Positions 23,424 to 33,634 of a DNA stretch of 33,634 bases are shown piece by piece. Location: the NCBI GenBank assembly GCA_030836805.1, contig JAUPLS010000058.1, positions 1 through 33,634 of the forward strand, written 5' to 3'. Made by a program: the position numbers and the translations under genes. This DNA is from Campylobacterota bacterium. GTDB lineage: Bacteria > Campylobacterota > Campylobacteria > Campylobacterales > Sulfurovaceae. Each line of letters opens with the position of its first letter. Within the stretch, counting starts at the first letter, position 1. The notes beneath the pieces were generated by a model. It searched no databases, was not told the origin of the DNA, and saw only the letters and a program-made list of their open reading frames with translations.

Positions 23424-24242
23424 CTAAAACTCACGCTCAACTTCCGGCATGTTCTTAAAAGCATCACATGCCAAAACAGCCGCACCAAAAGAGGTCGTAA
23501 TTTGCGGATATTCCGGTACAAATATCTTTTTGCCGAGTTCGTTTTCGATGGCATGAACCAGTCCGGCATTCAAAGCCGGTCCGCCGTCAAAATAGACATT
23601 TTCTTTGATGCCGACTCTTTTAACCAGCTTCACGATTCTTTTAGCAATAGAATAGTGAACCCCGGAAACAATGTCCTCGACACTATGGTTGCTCCCCAGC
23701 AGTCCGATGATCTCTGATTCAGCAAAAACAGCACAGGTGCTGCTGATCGAGAGCGGAGTTCCGGTTGATTTAAAATGATAGTCACTGAGCTCATCGACGC
23801 CTATCTCCAAATTCATCGCCACCACATCTAAAAATTTTCCGGTTCCTGCCGCACATCGGTCATTCATGGCAAAGTTAACCACATTACCTTCACTGTCTAG
23901 TGAAATCGCTTTGCTGTCTTGACCGCCTATATTGATAATCGTTTTTATCTCTCCGTATTCTCTTGCCGCCTCTTGCGCTCCGATCGCATTGGCGGTAATT
24001 TCACTGATGTTTTCATCTGCCTCTTTAAACAGTTTTCTGCCATATCCCGTTGCAACAGTATATGCGATGTCATCTTGGCTGATATGCAGCTCATCGAGCA
24101 AACTTTGCAAAGTTTCTTTGGCATATTTATAAAACATGCTCCCGCTTGCGTTGATTTTAAATCCAACCAAACGTTTATGTTCATCCGTAACAGTAATTTT
24201 GATCGCTGTCGAACCGATATCTATCCCTACAAAATAGTTCAC
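23424..24242 (-). CDS. BadF/BadG/HgdC-type ATPase, activator of 2-hydroxyacyl-CoA dehydratase / double-cubane cluster protein
   Basis: GIDIGSTAIKI, NIGGQDSKAI, NDRCAAGTGKFLD, SSTCAVFAESEIIGLL (bridging FeS cysteines); GTG start overlapping the upstream stop (GTGA). Confidence 0.92.
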   Translation of the reverse strand: MNYFVGIDIGSTAIKITVTDEHKRLVGFKINASGSMFYKYAKETLQSLLDELHISQDDIAYTVATGYGRKLFKEADENISEITANAIGAQEAAREYGEIKTIINIGGQDSKAISLDSEGNVVNFAMNDRCAAGTGKFLDVVAMNLEIGVDELSDYHFKSTGTPLSISSTCAVFAESEIIGLLGSNHSVEDIVSGVHYSIAKRIVKLVKRVGIKENVYFDGGPALNAGLVHAIENELGKKIFVPEYPQITTSFGAAVLACDAFKNMPEVEREF

Positions 24243-25513
24243 TTTTTCATTCTCCGTCTATTTTTTAACGATTCTATAAATGCTTCCACCCTCGTACTAA
24301 GCTGTCCGCCTTGCGACGGACTGTAATCACTTTCCAGATAAATAATCGGGATTCCTTCTTTCTCCATCGCTTCAAGTACACTTCTTTGTTCCATCTCATA
24401 TACAGTACATCCGGCAAATGCCTGATAAACCACCCCATCAGCTTTATATGCTCTTACTAATTGTATAACTCTTCTGATGCGGTCTTCATTTTTTGTAAAA
24501 ATCGGGCAAGTACACGCTTTGAGATATTTATCCGATATAGAATCCATCATATCGTATATATTCCACTCATCTACGGCTACCATGTCATTAAACATCCTGT
24601 TTGAACTGCACGTTTCATCTGCGACTATGATGGCATCTGATTGTTCTACTATAAGAGGGATTTTATAGTTTGGAAATATAGGCGGCGAACCAGTGTAAAC
24701 TATCCTTGGACTGGCTTTGCCTGATACTGTTATCTTTTCTTTTGCTCTTATTTCAAGCTCGCTTAGGAGTTTTTCAGTAGCTTCTATCCAATTGTCAATT
24801 TTGTCAAAGAAAAAAGCATTAGTTACCAAAAAAACATCCAATCCCAAAATTGGAACAAGCTCATTTTTTCTAAATTCTGATAATTTATGATAAAGTGATT
24901 GGGCATAGCCTATCTTTTTTATAGCATTTTTTAGACTTGTTCTGGTTAGTTTTTTGCCTTGGAATCTAGAGAGTTCTACTGCAAATTGTTTGACACTTCT
25001 TCTCCAGTATTCACGACTCGCTTCACTCTCTTTTGTTCTAGGAAAATCTATATCAATAAGTTTATATCCAAAACTCTCAATAGTAACACCTGCTTTTGTT
25101 TTTTGGTCGCAAGTAGTAGGAGAAAAAACAATATCCGGTTTATCAGTGAAATTTCCGGAAGCAAAATGTCCAACGGTTGCTTTTATAAGTGGACAAGCTT
25201 TTTGAGGCATAAGATCACTTCCTATCTCGTCATCCGTATAAAAGCCATTGCAAAGGCGTATAGGCACACCATCAAGTGCATAGATGATCTCAGATGGTAT
25301 CTGGATGCACATGGTTCCTATTTTTGTTTTGTCATCATGTAAAGATTCATGTTTGCAATGAACTCTTTCAAATAGATCATAGAAATACTCCATACTAGAA
25401 ATCGGCGCTTTGAAGTCTTCTCTTAAAGTATTTAAAAGCTTTATTGCTTCCATCGCCTTGTGTCTGTTTTGTTTTTCTTTCGGTGATTCTATGTTGTGAT
25501 TTATATTATTCAT
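24239..25513 (-). CDS. 2-hydroxyacyl-CoA dehydratase family protein (HgdB/FldC-like; candidate double-cubane cluster protein)
   Basis: 424 aa. QKACPLIK, SPTTCDQK, ADETCSSNR, CTCPIF, FAGCTVYE, YLESDYSPSQGGQLSTRVEAFIE C-terminal signature. Confidence 0.88.
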   Translation of the reverse strand: MNNINHNIESPKEKQNRHKAMEAIKLLNTLREDFKAPISSMEYFYDLFERVHCKHESLHDDKTKIGTMCIQIPSEIIYALDGVPIRLCNGFYTDDEIGSDLMPQKACPLIKATVGHFASGNFTDKPDIVFSPTTCDQKTKAGVTIESFGYKLIDIDFPRTKESEASREYWRRSVKQFAVELSRFQGKKLTRTSLKNAIKKIGYAQSLYHKLSEFRKNELVPILGLDVFLVTNAFFFDKIDNWIEATEKLLSELEIRAKEKITVSGKASPRIVYTGSPPIFPNYKIPLIVEQSDAIIVADETCSSNRMFNDMVAVDEWNIYDMMDSISDKYLKACTCPIFTKNEDRIRRVIQLVRAYKADGVVYQAFAGCTVYEMEQRSVLEAMEKEGIPIIYLESDYSPSQGGQLSTRVEAFIESLKNRRRMKK

Positions 25514-26504
25514 GAGATTCCTTTTGCATATCCATTGCCATTCTTAAAATAAATCCCTCTTTTGAAGATTCAAATATTGTAATTCCAATAAAATTTGCCT
25601 CCAAACACCCATCTTCCGGACAAGCAGCTATGCATTTCAGACACAAAATGCAATCTTCGGTAACTAAATTTTTACTTGTCACATCATCTGCGATTTCCAA
25701 AATATCCATATCGCAAGCCCTATAACAATCGCCGCATTTAGTGCATTTGGCACCATCTTTGTAGAGCTTGAGAAGTGCCGGCTTGGAAAATATATACTGT
25801 AATGCAGCCATGGGGCAAAAGTAGCAAAAAAACCTCTTTTTGATAAATGAACCGACTAAAAACAGACCCACAATCATCATGCCCAGAATAGTCATGACCA
25901 AATCGGTCTTAGACGAAAAATCAATATAGAATTGATTAAAATTTCCAGTAAAAGCCGGGATTAGCATTCTGCCAGGGCAAATATCACAAAATGGCATAGA
26001 TAGACCATTTGGAAGTTTTGGGAGTCCCCCAATAGAATTACTTATCATGACCGGAATTATCAAAAGAAGTATCAAAAGAATATATTTAATACTCTTTATC
26101 TTGCTTCTGTTTGCCCATGAGTACTCTGAAAATCTTATTTTTAGCTTTTCTCTTAATGCCGTAAGCCAATCTTGCATTGTTCCAAGTGGGCAAACAAAGC
26201 CACACCAGCCTTTGTTTAAGACCCAAAACCACGCTATAAACATGGCCAAAGAGATAAGAAAAGCATATCCTGCAAAACCCATAAATGTCTCCAGTGGATG
26301 CTTTAGATCATGCTGAAGCATTCCGACATAGCACTTTCCGCCGGTACCTTCCGAATTGTATACGCATGCAAAAGTGGGAAGCTTGTCTCCTAAATCAAGA
26401 CCGACATAGCCTCCATACACTATAATCAAAAATGCAACTATCTGAAACCAAAAACGAAATCGTACAAGATTCATATTGTTTATTTTTCTTTTTAAATTGA
26501 GCAA
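25506..26504 (-). CDS. NapH/CcoG-like polytopic membrane polyferredoxin (4Fe-4S)
   Basis: WCGFVCPLGTMQDW, FCDICPGR, RFFCYFCPMAALQ, CTKCGDCYRACDM, CILCLKCIAACPEDGC; TTG start with SD AAGGAG. Confidence 0.85.
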   Translation of the reverse strand: MLNLKRKINNMNLVRFRFWFQIVAFLIIVYGGYVGLDLGDKLPTFACVYNSEGTGGKCYVGMLQHDLKHPLETFMGFAGYAFLISLAMFIAWFWVLNKGWCGFVCPLGTMQDWLTALREKLKIRFSEYSWANRSKIKSIKYILLILLLIIPVMISNSIGGLPKLPNGLSMPFCDICPGRMLIPAFTGNFNQFYIDFSSKTDLVMTILGMMIVGLFLVGSFIKKRFFCYFCPMAALQYIFSKPALLKLYKDGAKCTKCGDCYRACDMDILEIADDVTSKNLVTEDCILCLKCIAACPEDGCLEANFIGITIFESSKEGFILRMAMDMQKESHE

Positions 26505-26513
26505 CTTTTCTCC

Positions 26514-28217
26514 TTAAAATAGATAATTCATACCAAAAAGGTAAGTTCGACCTGCTGCAGGGTAACCTATATGTACATCATAGTCTTTATCAAATAAATT
26601 TTCCACTTCTACATAAAACTTCATATTTTTATATCCATATTCAACTTTTGAATTAGCCGAAAAGTACCCTGGCAATACTTCTTTGTTTTTGTTATCATTA
26701 AACGATTCACTGACATAATAGCCACCAAGATTAGCTTTGAAATTTTTATATGTAGCATAAATATCTGATTGAATTTTATGTTTTGGTTTGGCCGGCAGGT
26801 ATAGACCTGTATCATCATTTTTAAATATCAAATTTAGATATGAAGTATCTATATTGAGCATATCGTTAATCTTTACATCAAAACCAGCTTCATAGCCTTT
26901 TCTTGTGCTTGAAGTAACATTCTCATAAATATATATACCATCCGCATTATATGAACCACTGATACCGTCATCTATTTTGCTATAAAAAAGATTAAAGTTA
27001 GCACTTAAATTATCCGTAACTTTTATAGAGTTGCCGAGCTGATAATTTGTAGCTGATTCCATCTCTAGATCCGGATTGCCTTTGAGTGTACTGCTTTCGT
27101 AATATCTTTGTTTAAACGTTGGAGTTTTTGATGATCTGCTTATTTTCAAATCGGATCTGAAATCACCATTTTTATACATTAACCCAAGCTCGGGATTAAA
27201 AGAAGAACCAAATTCCGTATGAGAGTTCAATCGAAGACCTAAATTTATACCAAACTCGCCAAAATTTAAATTTTTAATACCATATATACCATATAAATTT
27301 TCGTTATGATCGCCACTATTTGTAGCTTCGGCACTTCTATTTTCAAAGTTTATTCCGACAATAGATTGACCCAAAAATGATAGATCACCATTATGTTTTA
27401 TGTCAGTTCCCAAAGTTTTTGTTTTCAAAAAAGAGTCTATACTATAGTCGGGGTCCGTATTGAAATCTTCATTACAATTAAGATATCCACGACCTTCAAA
27501 GCTATCATTTTTTAGCAAAACCAAAGCACCAAAAGACTCTTTTTCATATCTTGCATTTAAAGTGGGTTTCGTTATTTTCCCGGTAGTGCCACCTTTGTCT
27601 GTTATATAATTTGTAGTAAAGCTTGTGTCTATATCTCGAAACAACAGCGTATTTAAATCTATCTTCATAGAATTAACCTCGCTATCTCCATTTAACCTAT
27701 GGCCGTCACTTTTTTCATGATTTGCACCGAGTGATACACCAATACCATCAAATGATTTTCCTACATTTAAGCCATATTTGTTGGTATCCAGCGAACCCTT
27801 GGCAATGTCAAGTTTATTTACAAATGATTTGCCTGTTTTTTTTGAAGTTATCATAATGACTCCACCGCTTGTATTGTCCCCATATTGAGCTGCTCCAGCA
27901 CCTTTGATTATCTCTATCTTTTCTAAATTATCAGTAGAAATTCCACCCAAATTTGCAGTCCCGGTAAGCGAGTCTGTCAATGGCCTGCCATCAAACAGCA
28001 CTAAAACCTCATTTGTTGTAGAACCTTGTATACTTATAAAGCCATCGCTTGCTTTGACTCCGGGCAATTTATTTAACAAGTCTACAAGCATTTGAATGTT
28101 CATGGCTTTTATCTCTTGAGACGAGATAATTATGGAACCATTAGTTTGACCTATCTCATTTGCACCAAGCAAGCCGCAAAGCAAAACAGAGATGATGAGA
28201 GTTTTATTTTTCTTCAA
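26514..28217 (-). CDS. TonB-dependent outer membrane receptor
   Basis: Plug: LVDLLNKLPGVKASDGFISIQGSTTNEVLVLFDGRPLTDS...IEIIKGAGAAQYGDNTSGGVIMITSKK; barrel; C-terminal NYLF. TTG start at 28217 with SD AAGGAG; the track start at 28292 is overextended. Confidence 0.9.
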   Translation of the reverse strand: MKKNKTLIISVLLCGLLGANEIGQTNGSIIISSQEIKAMNIQMLVDLLNKLPGVKASDGFISIQGSTTNEVLVLFDGRPLTDSLTGTANLGGISTDNLEKIEIIKGAGAAQYGDNTSGGVIMITSKKTGKSFVNKLDIAKGSLDTNKYGLNVGKSFDGIGVSLGANHEKSDGHRLNGDSEVNSMKIDLNTLLFRDIDTSFTTNYITDKGGTTGKITKPTLNARYEKESFGALVLLKNDSFEGRGYLNCNEDFNTDPDYSIDSFLKTKTLGTDIKHNGDLSFLGQSIVGINFENRSAEATNSGDHNENLYGIYGIKNLNFGEFGINLGLRLNSHTEFGSSFNPELGLMYKNGDFRSDLKISRSSKTPTFKQRYYESSTLKGNPDLEMESATNYQLGNSIKVTDNLSANFNLFYSKIDDGISGSYNADGIYIYENVTSSTRKGYEAGFDVKINDMLNIDTSYLNLIFKNDDTGLYLPAKPKHKIQSDIYATYKNFKANLGGYYVSESFNDNKNKEVLPGYFSANSKVEYGYKNMKFYVEVENLFDKDYDVHIGYPAAGRTYLFGMNYLF

Positions 28218-29160
28218 ACCAAATCTCCTTGGGAGTTTTTCGTTTTTTTCTCCGGTTGTAATACAGTCCCAAAGAAAAGACCAGCATGACACCTATGGCA
28301 GTTGCAAATCCCAAAAATTTTGATTCGTATTCAAGCGGAGATGAACCAAAAGAGAGAGGCATAGTCATTGTATATTCTGCAGCATGATACGCCTCCCCAT
28401 TATAGGCACCCGATTCATTTACTTTATATACTGCCTCAATGACCATTTTTTCAGAATATTTTTCTTCTTTTTCTGTTTTAGCATATGTGTTTCTGGGGAT
28501 TTCAAATGAGACAACTCCATCATCGGATGGTTTGATCACATTGGTCCATCCTGTCTCCATGGTTACTTTCAGAGGTATGTTTTTTTGAAGCTTTCCTTTG
28601 TAGTAAACCTTAAAGGGGGCAATGTCGCCTGAGTACAAACAGCAATTAATATGGTGCTTTCTGATCGGCCTTTCCATAATAATCTCAAACGGTAATTGCG
28701 CCAAAGGCTCTCTTCCATACTGAGAATCATTCGTTTTTCCACGTACCTCTTTCAATAAAGATTTGGCGATCTCTCCCTCTTTGTTATATACTCTGAGCGT
28801 TGAAAGCGTTACATGTAGTATCTCGTCCTGTACATATTTTTGTTCAAAAAATAGATGGTAGTTTCCTTTGTATAGAGGAGCAAAAGAGATTTTTTCGCCT
28901 TTGATACTCTGTTCAATAATTTTATTGTCCATATCTCTGATATACACTTTTGCATTTTTAAAATCACAGACAGTTTCACTACTCTGCAAATCACCATTTT
29001 TAATACTAAACTCTTTGTGCCCTGGCTCTCCAGCTTCTGTCGCACAGCAAGATTCCACTTTGATTTCTTCCAGCCAAATTGAGTTACTCCCAAAAAGGGG
29101 CAAAAAAGCCAAAAGTGCTAATATGGAAGTGGTTTTATGAAAATTATTTTTCATTTTCAT
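28204..29160 (-). CDS. Exported, C-terminally membrane-anchored protein with Ig-like/DUF4198-like domain
   Basis: Signal peptide, SCCATEAGEPGHKEF, TGWTNVIKPSDDGVVSFEIPR, YTMTMPLSF, C-terminal TM plus RRKKRK. Clear paralogue of the ORF at 32559. Confidence 0.6.
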   Translation of the reverse strand: MKMKNNFHKTTSILALLAFLPLFGSNSIWLEEIKVESCCATEAGEPGHKEFSIKNGDLQSSETVCDFKNAKVYIRDMDNKIIEQSIKGEKISFAPLYKGNYHLFFEQKYVQDEILHVTLSTLRVYNKEGEIAKSLLKEVRGKTNDSQYGREPLAQLPFEIIMERPIRKHHINCCLYSGDIAPFKVYYKGKLQKNIPLKVTMETGWTNVIKPSDDGVVSFEIPRNTYAKTEKEEKYSEKMVIEAVYKVNESGAYNGEAYHAAEYTMTMPLSFGSSPLEYESKFLGFATAIGVMLVFSLGLYYNRRKKRKTPKEIWFEEK

Positions 29161-29165
29161 ACCGA

Positions 29166-31373
29166 TCAGAAAGTCATTACTAATTCGGTTGTTATGTTTC
29201 TTCCCGGCAACAAATAGTACTGATAGATTGTTTCATCTGTCAAATTGTTAACTGAAATAGAAGCTTTTAATTCTTTATTTATCTGATATTCAATTTTTGC
29301 ATTGCTCAACCAGTAAGAATCCCAGCTTCCGAACACTCCTCCCACATCCGGGGTATTCAATTCAGTAGAATACACGCTATCACTGTATTTCGTTTCGATC
29401 AGTCCTGACCAATTTTCGTATTTCGTTGAGAGTGCCGCGCTCCACATATGTGTTGGTGTTTGAACCAATTTATTTCCGATTGTCAAAGGTTCAGCATCGT
29501 TTTTGAGAACTTCAGAATCTATATAAGAATACGCCATATCAAGATTTAACCATGATGTGAGATTGGTATTCATGGAGAGTTCGATTCCTCTAACACGAGC
29601 TTCACCGGCATTTGCTTTTTCAACATGGGTAGCATCGATTGTCTTTCCATAAATCATATCTTCCAAAGTCGTTTGATAGAGTGACAAGACTGTTTTAAGA
29701 TCAGAAGTAGGTCTCCATTCTCCCCCAATCTCATACGTTGTTGCGATTTCCGGTTTGAGATCAGGATTGCTTTGGTAGTATTTACCGCAGCAATAGAGTG
29801 TTCCGTACAACTCATAGTTATCCGGCGCACGGAATGATTTGCCGACAGAGGCGCGAAGCGTCACATCATCGATTGGCAGATACACCACTGAGAGTTTTGG
29901 ACTGAACGCGCTGTCGCTTCTCTTGTCAAAATCATTTTGATAAGCGCCTGTACCTATTTTAAAATTGTTTCCTTGTGTTTCCCAGCGATCGTATCGACCG
30001 CCTAGATAAACGGTAAATGCATCACTCAGTGCAATTTCATCCTGCAAAAACACTGAACTGGCCGATGATTCTCCATACGCCCCTTCCGTAGCTGAACCAG
30101 TTATAGAATCTTCATCTCTCCAGCTTGTCAAAGTGTAAACTTTTCGATCAAGTTCGGTATTGCGTTGATTTATTCCAATTGTAAGATAATTGAAATCGTT
30201 GAAGGCAAAGGCTGTTTGCGCTAATACATCCAAAGCTTCACTGGGGTTGTCTTTTTTACTTCCGGGTCCCGAATAAAATGTAGCTCCTGTTCCTTTTTCA
30301 TTATACCAGTTGCTAATTTCAGCTTTAGAAATTTCAAATTTTGTGTCGTATTCACCCCCAAAGAGACCATTGTATCCTGCAAAAGTACGGATGCTTCCGT
30401 TTTCAAGAGGTGATGTTGACGCGAAATCGGTCTCAGTAAGGCTTATTTTATTGCTTCCGTCTATACTCATACTAGTATTATTTACAACAGGATTTCCGCT
30501 TAAATCATAAAGGTAGGAATGGTAATCGCCTTGATCCATTTTATATACATTGTAAGTCACTCCCCCGTATATTTTAGATTTTGGGTCCAAATCGTAGTCC
30601 AATTTCAAAGTTGCATTGTTTTGTGTCCAAGCCATTTCCCCTTTATCGCCTACAATATACGCTGGCGTACCTGTTGCAGTCGTAGTCGGTATTCCTCCTG
30701 TCACAGGTGTTGTTCCCGCCGTCGTTCCGGGAGTTTTTACTACGAATTCATTCACATAACCCGTACGATCTTCTCTTCCAAAGCCAAGAACAACACCCAA
30801 ACCGTTCTCATTTTTACTACGATGATATAGTGAAAAATCATTACCTTCTGCATCGCCAAACCCTTTTTTATAGCGGATCGTTGTTTCCGGTTTTGATGAT
30901 TTTTTGGTGATGATATTGATAACACCGCCGATTGCATTGCTTCCGTACAGCGAAGAAAAAGCGCCGGGTACAACTTCGATACGTTCGACATCGTCTGTCA
31001 ATACTGTCCTAAAATCAACTTTGCTAGAGAATCCATCCACCAAAGGTACGCCATCGATTAAAACAGCTGTTCGTGATGCATTCATCCCGCGAAGCGTGAA
31101 AGTCCCGGATCCCACCCCTTGGCTCATCTGACCGTTCATCGGTGTTCCCATGCTCAACCCCGGAACCATCAGTAATGCATCACTAACTCGGGAAACATTT
31201 CTCTGTTTCAACTCAGCATTTGAAATAACGGTAACCGAAGCAGGTGAGTCAGATGATGCCTGTTCTGTTTTTGTAGCTGTTACCGATATGTCCCCCAAAT
31301 CAATACTTTCAGCCATAGCGTTAGTTGTGCCGATGGCAAATATAGCCAAAGCGGACAATGTAATTGTTTTCAT
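29166..31373 (-). CDS. TonB-dependent outer membrane receptor
   Basis: Signal peptide, TonB-box-like DISVTATK, plug VLIDGVPLVDGFSSKVDFRTVLTDDVERIEVVPGAFSSLYGSNAIGGVINIITKK, barrel ending ELVMTF. Confidence 0.94.
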   Translation of the reverse strand: MKTITLSALAIFAIGTTNAMAESIDLGDISVTATKTEQASSDSPASVTVISNAELKQRNVSRVSDALLMVPGLSMGTPMNGQMSQGVGSGTFTLRGMNASRTAVLIDGVPLVDGFSSKVDFRTVLTDDVERIEVVPGAFSSLYGSNAIGGVINIITKKSSKPETTIRYKKGFGDAEGNDFSLYHRSKNENGLGVVLGFGREDRTGYVNEFVVKTPGTTAGTTPVTGGIPTTTATGTPAYIVGDKGEMAWTQNNATLKLDYDLDPKSKIYGGVTYNVYKMDQGDYHSYLYDLSGNPVVNNTSMSIDGSNKISLTETDFASTSPLENGSIRTFAGYNGLFGGEYDTKFEISKAEISNWYNEKGTGATFYSGPGSKKDNPSEALDVLAQTAFAFNDFNYLTIGINQRNTELDRKVYTLTSWRDEDSITGSATEGAYGESSASSVFLQDEIALSDAFTVYLGGRYDRWETQGNNFKIGTGAYQNDFDKRSDSAFSPKLSVVYLPIDDVTLRASVGKSFRAPDNYELYGTLYCCGKYYQSNPDLKPEIATTYEIGGEWRPTSDLKTVLSLYQTTLEDMIYGKTIDATHVEKANAGEARVRGIELSMNTNLTSWLNLDMAYSYIDSEVLKNDAEPLTIGNKLVQTPTHMWSAALSTKYENWSGLIETKYSDSVYSTELNTPDVGGVFGSWDSYWLSNAKIEYQINKELKASISVNNLTDETIYQYYLLPGRNITTELVMTF

Positions 31374-31529: not shown

Positions 31530-31582
31530 GTATAAATATAAATTGTTAATTTAATGTTAAGCTTAAGAAATATTTATCATAA

Positions 31583-32572
31583 CTAGAAATTAACATTTTT
31601 TGTATTGAGCTCGATACCCATTCTTTTTGCAAATCCTTCTTTTGTGGAACTAAAGACTCTCATATTCAAAATATCCACATGCAAAGCATCATCTTCGGGG
31701 CAAGCCGCGACACATTTCATACAGAACATACAGTCATCCCTTAGGATATTTGTGCTTGTTACGTCATCGGCGATATCTTTGATTTGCATATCGCACACTT
31801 TATAGCAGTCTCCGCATTTTGTACATTTATCCCCATCTTTTCTAAGTTTTAAAATAGCCAGATCAGAAAAAGTATAATGCAGTGCGCTCATGGGACAAAA
31901 AAAACAAAAGAATCTTTTTTTGATAAAACTTCCTACAAAAAATACTGCGGCAAACAAAACTCCGATCGTCGTTAAAATCATCGCGGCAATTGAAGAAAAA
32001 TCTATTGTCCACTGGGAAAAATCACCTACAAACATGGGAGATATGACTCTTGCCGGACATATTTGACAAAAAGCCCCGGACCATTCTCCCCCCAAAACTC
32101 CAATGCCTATAAGCAAAGGGATAAAAACGACGATTGCTAAAAAAATATATTTGATTTTTGACAATTTATCAAACTGGGGTTGAGAATAGGTACTGTATCT
32201 GATCCCCAGTTTTTTTCTCAATGCGGTTATCCAGTCCTGCAAGGTACCAAATGGGCATGCATATCCGCACCAAGCTTTATTTAAAACAACAAACCATCCG
32301 ATAAAAGTCAACAGCCCGATAAATACAGAAATAGCCGCGGCTCCAAAAAGCACATTTGCCGGCATTGCAAGCTGATGCTGCAAAGGCATGAAATAACAGG
32401 TTGCCCCCGTTTCACTATTGTACGGACAGGCAAATATCGGGATGCTTGAGCCAAAATCTATAAAAACATATCCCCCGTATGCAAAAAGTATAAACATAAC
32501 CAGCTGAATCCAAAACCTAACCTTGTTTAAGGGCATATTGTTGATCATATTTTTTATTTTATTTTTCATCAT
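31583..32572 (-). CDS. NapH/CcoG-like polytopic membrane polyferredoxin, paralogue of 25506-26504
   Basis: WCGYACPFGTLQDW, FCQICPAR, RFFCFFCPMSALH, CTKCGDCYKVCDM, CMFCMKCVAACPED; start set at MMKNKIKN. Confidence 0.85.
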   Translation of the reverse strand: MMKNKIKNMINNMPLNKVRFWIQLVMFILFAYGGYVFIDFGSSIPIFACPYNSETGATCYFMPLQHQLAMPANVLFGAAAISVFIGLLTFIGWFVVLNKAWCGYACPFGTLQDWITALRKKLGIRYSTYSQPQFDKLSKIKYIFLAIVVFIPLLIGIGVLGGEWSGAFCQICPARVISPMFVGDFSQWTIDFSSIAAMILTTIGVLFAAVFFVGSFIKKRFFCFFCPMSALHYTFSDLAILKLRKDGDKCTKCGDCYKVCDMQIKDIADDVTSTNILRDDCMFCMKCVAACPEDDALHVDILNMRVFSSTKEGFAKRMGIELNTKNVNF

Positions 32573-33634
32573 ATCTAACTTCTGCAAATGGTTTTGTTCT
32601 GTTTCTTCTGAATCTGTATGCAACAAAAGATGCCAACAATAGTATTAAAATAGCAATAATCAATCCGTCTTGATAGGATTTATATTCACTCTCATTTGGA
32701 TAAAAAGAGAGAGGGTATGTAAGTGTATATTTTATTTTGCTATAGTCGGCTCCATCCAAAACACCTCCGACATCATCTGTATACGATAAGGATACCAGCA
32801 GCATTTCTTTGTGTCTCTTGTCAAATTCCGGCCATTTTGGAAAATAGTCTTTTATGATATTAAATGCTGCGACCCCCTCTTTGTCTGTCTTTAAATCCCT
32901 TGTCCAGCCTGTATTTATAAATACTTTTATATCAGCATTGGCCAACGGCTTGTTGTTCAAAATGGCTTTGAATCTTAAAAGATCCCCGCTCGAATGGGTA
33001 TAAAAAAAGCTGTCCTCTTTTTTGTCTCTCAATCTAATCAAATCTATTCTGTTTTTTTCCGCGATAAACGGTTGGCTTTTGTGTGCCTCATAGATATCAG
33101 TAAGCCCATGGCTTCCATTCAAAAATTCCAACTTTGCGCTTTTGTAATACAATGTATTTTCTTTAACCGTCGAATGATTAAAAAACAGATTATAATAACC
33201 GTTATGCGGCATTTCAAAACTATAGGCAGCGCAATTGTATTGAAGAGCAGATTTGACAGGTTTTTCTTTGTTAAATGTATCATACAGCAACAACTCCCCC
33301 TCCAGCTTTCCGACACACTCATTTTGTCCAAAATTCTCACCATAAACCAGCCATACTTTTTGCGTGGGTGCCGCCATTGGATTGCCGCCATACATCCTGG
33401 CATGAGAACCTTTTGATGTTGCTTTTGGATCACTGCAGGTAAAATAGATCAAATCGCCGGCTTGAATGCTATTTTTAAAATCCAAAATCTCTCCGCCATT
33501 ATCCTCGGGCTGCGAGGAAGATGTTACATAGGAGGGCCTTTGCGCCATGCTTTGCCCTCCCATATGATGGGAATGATCTGCTGCTTTGACGCCATACACT
33601 TTAAATACATACCCTCGATAGATATTGATCCCTA
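32559..33634 (-). CDS. Ig-like/DUF4198-like membrane-anchored protein, partial at N-terminus (runs off the window)
   Basis: Frame stays open to the window edge (...GINIYRGYVFKVYGVKAADHSHHMGGQSM...), so the listed GTG start is probably internal. TGWTRDLKTDKEGVAAFNI, YTLTYPLSF, C-terminal TM plus RRNR. Confidence 0.6.
   Translation of the reverse strand, partial: GINIYRGYVFKVYGVKAADHSHHMGGQSMAQRPSYVTSSSQPEDNGGEILDFKNSIQAGDLIYFTCSDPKATSKGSHARMYGGNPMAAPTQKVWLVYGENFGQNECVGKLEGELLLYDTFNKEKPVKSALQYNCAAYSFEMPHNGYYNLFFNHSTVKENTLYYKSAKLEFLNGSHGLTDIYEAHKSQPFIAEKNRIDLIRLRDKKEDSFFYTHSSGDLLRFKAILNNKPLANADIKVFINTGWTRDLKTDKEGVAAFNIIKDYFPKWPEFDKRHKEMLLVSLSYTDDVGGVLDGADYSKIKYTLTYPLSFYPNESEYKSYQDGLIIAILILLLASFVAYRFRRNRTKPFAEVRYDEK

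Follow-up and report, generated by a model that had tools for sequence, protein, structure and literature searches.

Why would a single operon hold both TonB-dependent receptors and an ATP-driven iron-sulphur reductase? The question is raised by a 33,634-nucleotide (nt) stretch of Campylobacterota DNA (the window), which is one whole contig (G000:C37, where G-numbers denote genomes, G000 being the window's own, and L-numbers denote loci) of an assembly totalling 1.73 Mb, and whose closest named relatives in a genome-collection search are Sulfurovum. Our answer, held with a little less than even confidence, is that the operon encodes a TonB-dependent acquisition system for metal, most likely copper, that takes its reducing power from an ATP-driven double-cubane pair.

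An earlier note on this DNA described a six-gene unit. Translation and an open-reading-frame check placed all six frames where that note had them, all on the minus strand, and all five junctions were real: a 5-nt gap between receptor a and the DUF4198-like gene, a 14-nt overlap between the latter and receptor b if receptor b starts at the TTG at 28217, a 9-nt gap between receptor b and the NapH-like gene, and overlaps of 8 nt between the NapH-like and reductase genes and of 4 nt (GTGA) between the reductase and activator genes. The unit is not complete at six genes, since upstream of it lie a second NapH-like gene and another of DUF4198-like type that is truncated where the contig stops:

23424..24242, minus strand: ATP-hydrolysing activator, HgdC/DCCR type, the resident copy (PF01869, TIGR00241)
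24239..25513, minus strand: double-cubane-cluster protein (DCCP) family reductase (PF06050, NF040772, 7yyl/6eno)
25506..26504, minus strand: NapH-like membrane polyferredoxin (a) (Fer4_5 and Fer4_10)
26514..28217, minus strand: TonB-dependent receptor (TBDT) b (TTG start at 28217, longer GTG frame from 28292; Plug PF07715)
28204..29160, minus strand: DUF4198-like protein (a), predicted periplasmic with a C-terminal membrane anchor (predicted fold, 318 aa)
29166..31373, minus strand: TBDT a (PF00593 and PF07715 above cut-off)
31543..31560, plus strand: site predicted to bind a regulator, the 11-bp direct repeat TTGTTAATTTAATGTTAA in opposite orientation to the operon
31583..32626, minus strand: second NapH-like polyferredoxin (b) (Fer4_5 and Fer4_10; 95% identical to L023)
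32559..33634, minus strand: second DUF4198-like protein (b), gene cut by the contig end

The genome-collection search recovered 53 loci, mostly from Campylobacterota with a few from Gammaproteobacteria, whose DCCP identity ran from 94% to 52%. The NapH-like gene lies directly upstream of the DCCP gene in 47/47 testable loci and the activator gene directly downstream in 46/50, while the DUF4198-like gene precedes NapH in 37/40, a receptor intervening in the other three. Clustering of neighbours across 60 loci, which yields lower bounds because some contigs end early, found DsbD_2 at at least 40 loci, TonB receptors at at least 38, ExbB and TonB each at at least 23, ExbD at at least 21 and an RND permease at at least 14. 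The conserved order is TBDT-(ExbBD)-DsbD_2-DUF4198-NapH-DCCP-activator-(RND)-TonB, with receptors and ExbBD/TonB inside the same operons at short gaps or overlaps, and the conserved set in these neighbourhoods includes no inner-membrane importer. The gammaproteobacterial loci share the core module (L154 has a divergent TBDT-ExbB-ExbD-TonB), and orthologues of receptor b occupy the same position in L003, L006 and L013. Two receptor/DUF4198/NapH sets accompany one DCCP in L002, L003, L018, L039 and the window; in two assemblies with two DCCP copies (L013 with L030, L015 with L051; paired by their contig accessions), one copy lacks an adjacent activator gene. The system is rare, occurring in 10/250 Campylobacterota and, in a class sample to which the query genome belongs, in 4/274 genomes. 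Because the order of DCCP, polyferredoxin and DUF4198-like genes recurs in dozens of genomes, their grouping is more than chance, and the functional unit of TonB receptors, polyferredoxin and ATP-driven double-cubane reductase proposed in the earlier note is genuine.

The activator scores 182 bits to PF01869 and 233 bits to TIGR00241 (cut-off 125), and its C130 and C170 are invariant in 53 sequences. The window DCCP scores 307 bits to PF06050 (cut-off 28; 2.3e-91), and its closest structure in the Protein Data Bank (PDB) is DCCP (7yyl/6eno, 3e-60; BzdN 1.8e-18), with 207 bits to solved DCCP and 70 bits to BzdN. Its 325.2 bits to NF040772 (double_cubane) fall 25 bits short of the equivalog cut-off of 350, which the gammaproteobacterial copy in L047 clears at 360.2 bits, and on its sequence we file the window protein as a DCCP-like subfamily. 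We took as reference BzdN, whose [8Fe-9S] cluster is held by Cys36/73/100/263/293/327 (PMC11971306): C69, C107, C302, C336 and C369 of the window DCCP align exactly with these ligands and C135 with a one-residue slip, and all six predicted ligand cysteines are invariant in 54 sequences. Each locus has one HGD-D gene and no second HGD-D subunit gene, which sets these proteins apart from acyl-CoA dehydratases and benzoyl-CoA reductases. They resemble the solved DCCP and activator (6eno, 7yyl, 7yzm, 7yzq) in their PF06050 family, aligned cluster cysteines and neighbouring ATPase activator, but differ in that TonB genes and a polyferredoxin of the membrane always accompany them.

That polyferredoxin, the product of 25506..26504, is by its sequence NapH-like only, scoring 73.5 and 71.1 bits to the NapH quinol dehydrogenase subunit models TIGR02163 and NF007013, whose cut-offs are 213 and 234. 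It shares with the CcoG cupric reductase and the NapH/NosR polyferredoxins a membrane polyferredoxin architecture with CX2-3CP and paired [4Fe-4S] motifs; CcoG is cited in PMC13038864 as a cupric reductase. Unlike them, the window protein falls well short of the NapH models (73 vs 213 bits) and, besides the iron-sulphur motifs of the cytoplasmic side, carries five residues (C47, C58, H65, C173 and C176) that are invariant in every sequence and that the positive-inside rule and charge distribution predict to lie in periplasmic loops. An apparent NapH-DCCP fusion (a 747-aa frame in G408/G532) was rejected as no more than an open frame of unusual length, such as GC-rich DNA gives.

The DUF4198 label of the earlier note fails by sequence, as the 318-aa type a protein has no match to Pfam PF10670 and type b reaches 22.8 of the 34 bits of the gathering score, but it is supported by predicted fold. 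The AlphaFold model of type a (pLDDT, the predicted local distance difference test, 75; helix at 275-307) finds Zcp and the Ideonella DUF4198 protein at Foldseek ranks 1-9 in the PDB (TM-score by target 0.57-0.64), Zcp with Zn, Cu, Co or apo and DUF4198 with Ni, metal being bound in most of them. H169, C173 and C174 are invariant in 13 type-a sequences. Across the locus collection, fusion to an N-terminal polyferredoxin is seen in many DUF4198-like genes, as in the 794-aa full-length counterpart of type b in L023, and Pfam finds a NosL domain in the long DUF4198-like protein of L052, the conserved Cys/Met/His of which are kept in all seven members of this length class (906-919 aa).

What metal, then, might such a system serve? 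A direct repeat with an 11-bp period, TGTTA-N6-TGTTA, emerged from an unbiased search and is present in 25/36 operon starts versus 8/91 control upstream regions (Fisher p 1.7e-11, uncorrected for relatedness, the related sequences not being independent). Within Campylobacterota, GTGTTAA-N4-GTGTTAA stands at 25/31 operon starts, where 200 shuffles gave 0.08 on average and never more than 1, and it occurs in 10/13 clusters of similar upstream sequence; in the window it lies at 31543-31560, about 170 bp upstream of the start of receptor a. Such 11-bp spacing is typical of OmpR/PhoB-type regulators, and response-regulator/kinase pairs adjoin several sites. Boxes for Fur (simple consensus only), NikR, Zur and CueR were not enriched upstream over control regions, and membership of a Fur regulon was accordingly rejected.

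The genome of the window has seven exact sites, at nosZ, TonB, a copper-receptor-like gene, a TBDT/Na-Pi transporter pair, ExbB-ExbD, the window itself and contig C78, the last corresponding to the position that precedes DsbD_2 in L023. Across genomes, the repeat is found ahead of nosZ in G000, G034, G035, G111, G114, G199 and G317 and in three genomes of the same genus without the system (G016, G020, G273); it also precedes DsbD_2-ccoN (L132), TBDT-ccoN (L144, L146), NosL proteins (L139, L143), ExbBD, TonB and response-regulator/kinase genes, and a TBDT-PepSY pair (L145). The identities of the co-regulated genes rest on TIGR04246 (885 bits, cut-off 625), TIGR00780 (681, cut-off 583) and PF05573, and sub-threshold sites with three mismatches include chance matches, such as one inside a gene of L134. 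Of the regulon receptors outside the system, 5/7 scanned have TIGR01778 (TonB-copper) as their best model, all at sub-cut-off scores (161-234 bits), which is in favour of copper. Since ExbB, ExbD and TonB belong to the system in many genomes and are encoded here under the same control site as the operon, the receptors are part of a complete TonB system. Judged from these gene identities, copper is the simplest common factor of the repeat-bearing genes. The earlier note specified no metal; the copper reading is suggested by a control site common to nosZ, cbb3-oxidase and NosL genes.

Several other arrangements were noticed. G000 has two nosZ genes (C15, C155), of which the C15 copy carries the site. 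A pair of membrane proteins (440 and 464 aa) with C-terminal cytochrome c domains bears the same site in L008 (16457-19173) and L133 (3924-6637), Pfam matching the cytochrome part only. A Na/Pi-cotransporter-like gene, Pfam-confirmed in L138 only, adjoins the site in L091, L098 and L138, divergent from a receptor or regulator pair. In L034 (1-1742), a regulator/kinase pair that diverges from the operon has NosL, DsbD_2 and NosL genes after it, and in L093 (G000:C18) and L096 TonB and a copper-receptor-like gene have as neighbours cytochrome c-like genes and two response-regulator/kinase pairs in tandem.

From these components we propose the following mechanism. The receptors, with their dedicated ExbBD-TonB, would import a metal complex into the periplasm, where the DUF4198-like protein may bind the metal. 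The activator would hydrolyse ATP to charge the DCCP, which would feed the NapH-like protein from the cytoplasmic side; the latter would conduct electrons across the inner membrane to its conserved periplasmic Cys/His site, at which the complex or its metal would be reduced. The released metal could then supply copper enzymes, for example N2O reductase or cbb3 oxidase. In this scheme one common power unit, made up of activator and DCCP, would drive substrate-specific heads that each consist of receptor, DUF4198-like protein and NapH. The analysis establishes the gene set and how well it is conserved, the invariant residues and the common control site; from these we infer copper as the metal, the electron direction, the substrate and the NapH-DCCP interaction.

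A number of observations weigh against this proposal. The receptors of the system match heme, siderophore and B12 models best rather than copper: the cut-off of TIGR01778 (TonB-copper, 472 bits) is not reached, and other models fit the window receptors better. Gammaproteobacterial operons lack the repeat, and nosZ and cbb3 oxidase are both respiratory, so that the site could report the electron acceptor instead of copper. The structure model of NapH (pLDDT 58) is too poor to show the periplasmic cysteines meeting, and we left it out of spatial claims. NosZ is absent in 18/43 carrier genomes, near-complete ones among them, and so the system is not dedicated to it; nosZ in 25/43 carriers, which are related to each other, versus 76/250 of a phylum sample amounts to at most a loose link, and NosZ as sole reason for the system was rejected. 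The solved Ideonella DUF4198 protein prefers nickel, and copper gave it no stabilisation (PMC12537917). The weakest point is the need for ATP-driven electrons with copper, which an iron-siderophore substrate explains better. Ordinary Cu(II) reduction needs no such electrons.

The iron-siderophore alternative supposes reductive iron release from ferric siderophores of very low potential, with ATP making up for the weakness of ordinary donors. It would account for the very low-potential electrons and suits the siderophore and heme models that the receptors fit best, and DUF4198 genes occur in Fur-controlled clusters for which ferric iron reduction has been proposed (PMC3751524, PMC11870441, PMC8238504, PMC7190382). 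However, it is without regulatory support, as Fur-like boxes are not enriched upstream and it is nosZ, ccoN and NosL genes that bear the shared site, and we regard it as unlikely.

The direction of electron flow separates our proposal from a further alternative, in which the imported compound enters the cytoplasm to be reduced by DCCP while NapH passes membrane electrons to the activator or DCCP. The window DCCP has no evident signal peptide, the compounds that DCCPs are known to reduce (acetylene, azide, hydrazine; PMC11971306) are small molecules, and quinol is considered the electron source of NapH-like proteins in some cases (PMC8238504). Against this, the absence of an importer from the conserved set fits work at the periplasmic face better than reduction of a cytoplasmic substrate, the co-regulated genes encode copper proteins rather than catabolic ones, and the service of two receptor/DUF4198/NapH sets by one DCCP is suggestive, though only suggestive, of a power unit rather than a substrate-specific enzyme. 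The missing importer, the periplasmic Cys/His set and this head-to-engine ratio favour outward flow, none of them proving it, and we consider cytoplasmic reduction quite improbable. Of the mechanism in the earlier note, the receptor/polyferredoxin/ATP-driven reductase unit stands, while its electrons entering the reductase give way to outward flow as the likelier direction. That DCCP pushes very low-potential electrons outward through the polyferredoxin, stripping copper from TonB-imported periplasmic complexes, is in its full form a possibility we hold with clear doubt. We think it just as improbable as cytoplasmic reduction that low-potential electrons mature or activate NosZ, cbb3 oxidase or their chaperones with the receptors merely co-regulated, since, for all the co-regulation with nosZ and ccoN and the operon's NosL domain and DsbD_2 proteins, receptors and ExbBD/TonB are part of the same operons and many carriers have no NosZ.

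The operon is also a mosaic. Compared with L023, nucleotide identity is 92-99% on the activator side up to the DCCP junction, 61-89% on the DCCP side, and 93% again from NapHb onward (from 31609); L002/L003 show the opposite trend, with a switch at about 24250. These abrupt changes of nearest relative, at 24250 and about 31600, delimit a recombined block, and they indicate that TBDTa-DUF4198a-TBDTb-NapHa-DCCP came in, or was exchanged, in one piece. By this comparison of sequences, the incoming block now makes use of a resident activator. At the contig end, DsbD_2 and the first 437 residues of the upstream DUF4198-like gene were not found elsewhere in the assembly; C78 (L095) starts in the apparent region upstream of DsbD_2, and the window end at 33634 and this end of C78 are probably separated by some 2 kb of missing sequence.

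Among known systems, the nearest precedents in logic are CrtA/CrpH and the ferric reduction clusters that contain DUF4198. Bordetella CruR-CrtA-CrpH pairs a copper-controlled TonB receptor with an inner-membrane protein proposed to reduce periplasmic copper (PMC13038864); CrpH is a heme PepSY_TM protein, whereas here a polyferredoxin would be coupled to an ATP-driven reductase. The PepSY-DUF2271-DUF4198 clusters (PMC8238504) likewise set a periplasmic DUF4198 beside a membrane electron carrier and in some cases include a TonB receptor, but use flavin/heme carriers and Fur control in place of an iron-sulphur carrier and a non-Fur repeat. NosL/NosDFY copper delivery is linked through the NosL domain of some long DUF4198-like proteins and the site shared with nosZ, but its genes include no ATP-driven iron-sulphur reductase. 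In line with the earlier note, we could find no characterised pathway with this gene set and no description of the conserved system in the searched open literature, subscription papers being mostly uncovered.

Double-cubane proteins reduce nitrogenase-type substrates in vitro, and what the characterised DCCP does physiologically continues to be termed unclear (PMC11971306). The conserved operon, the fixed NapH partner and the site shared with nosZ and cbb3 oxidase offer a testable hypothesis for that role. If our proposal is true, this would be the first physiological role for a DCCP clade, and an ATP-powered reductive scavenging of metal whose energy coupling we did not find described in the open literature searched. 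Because N2O reductase requires copper, the answer bears on the production and consumption of a greenhouse gas by sulphur-oxidising bacteria in oxygen-poor waters.

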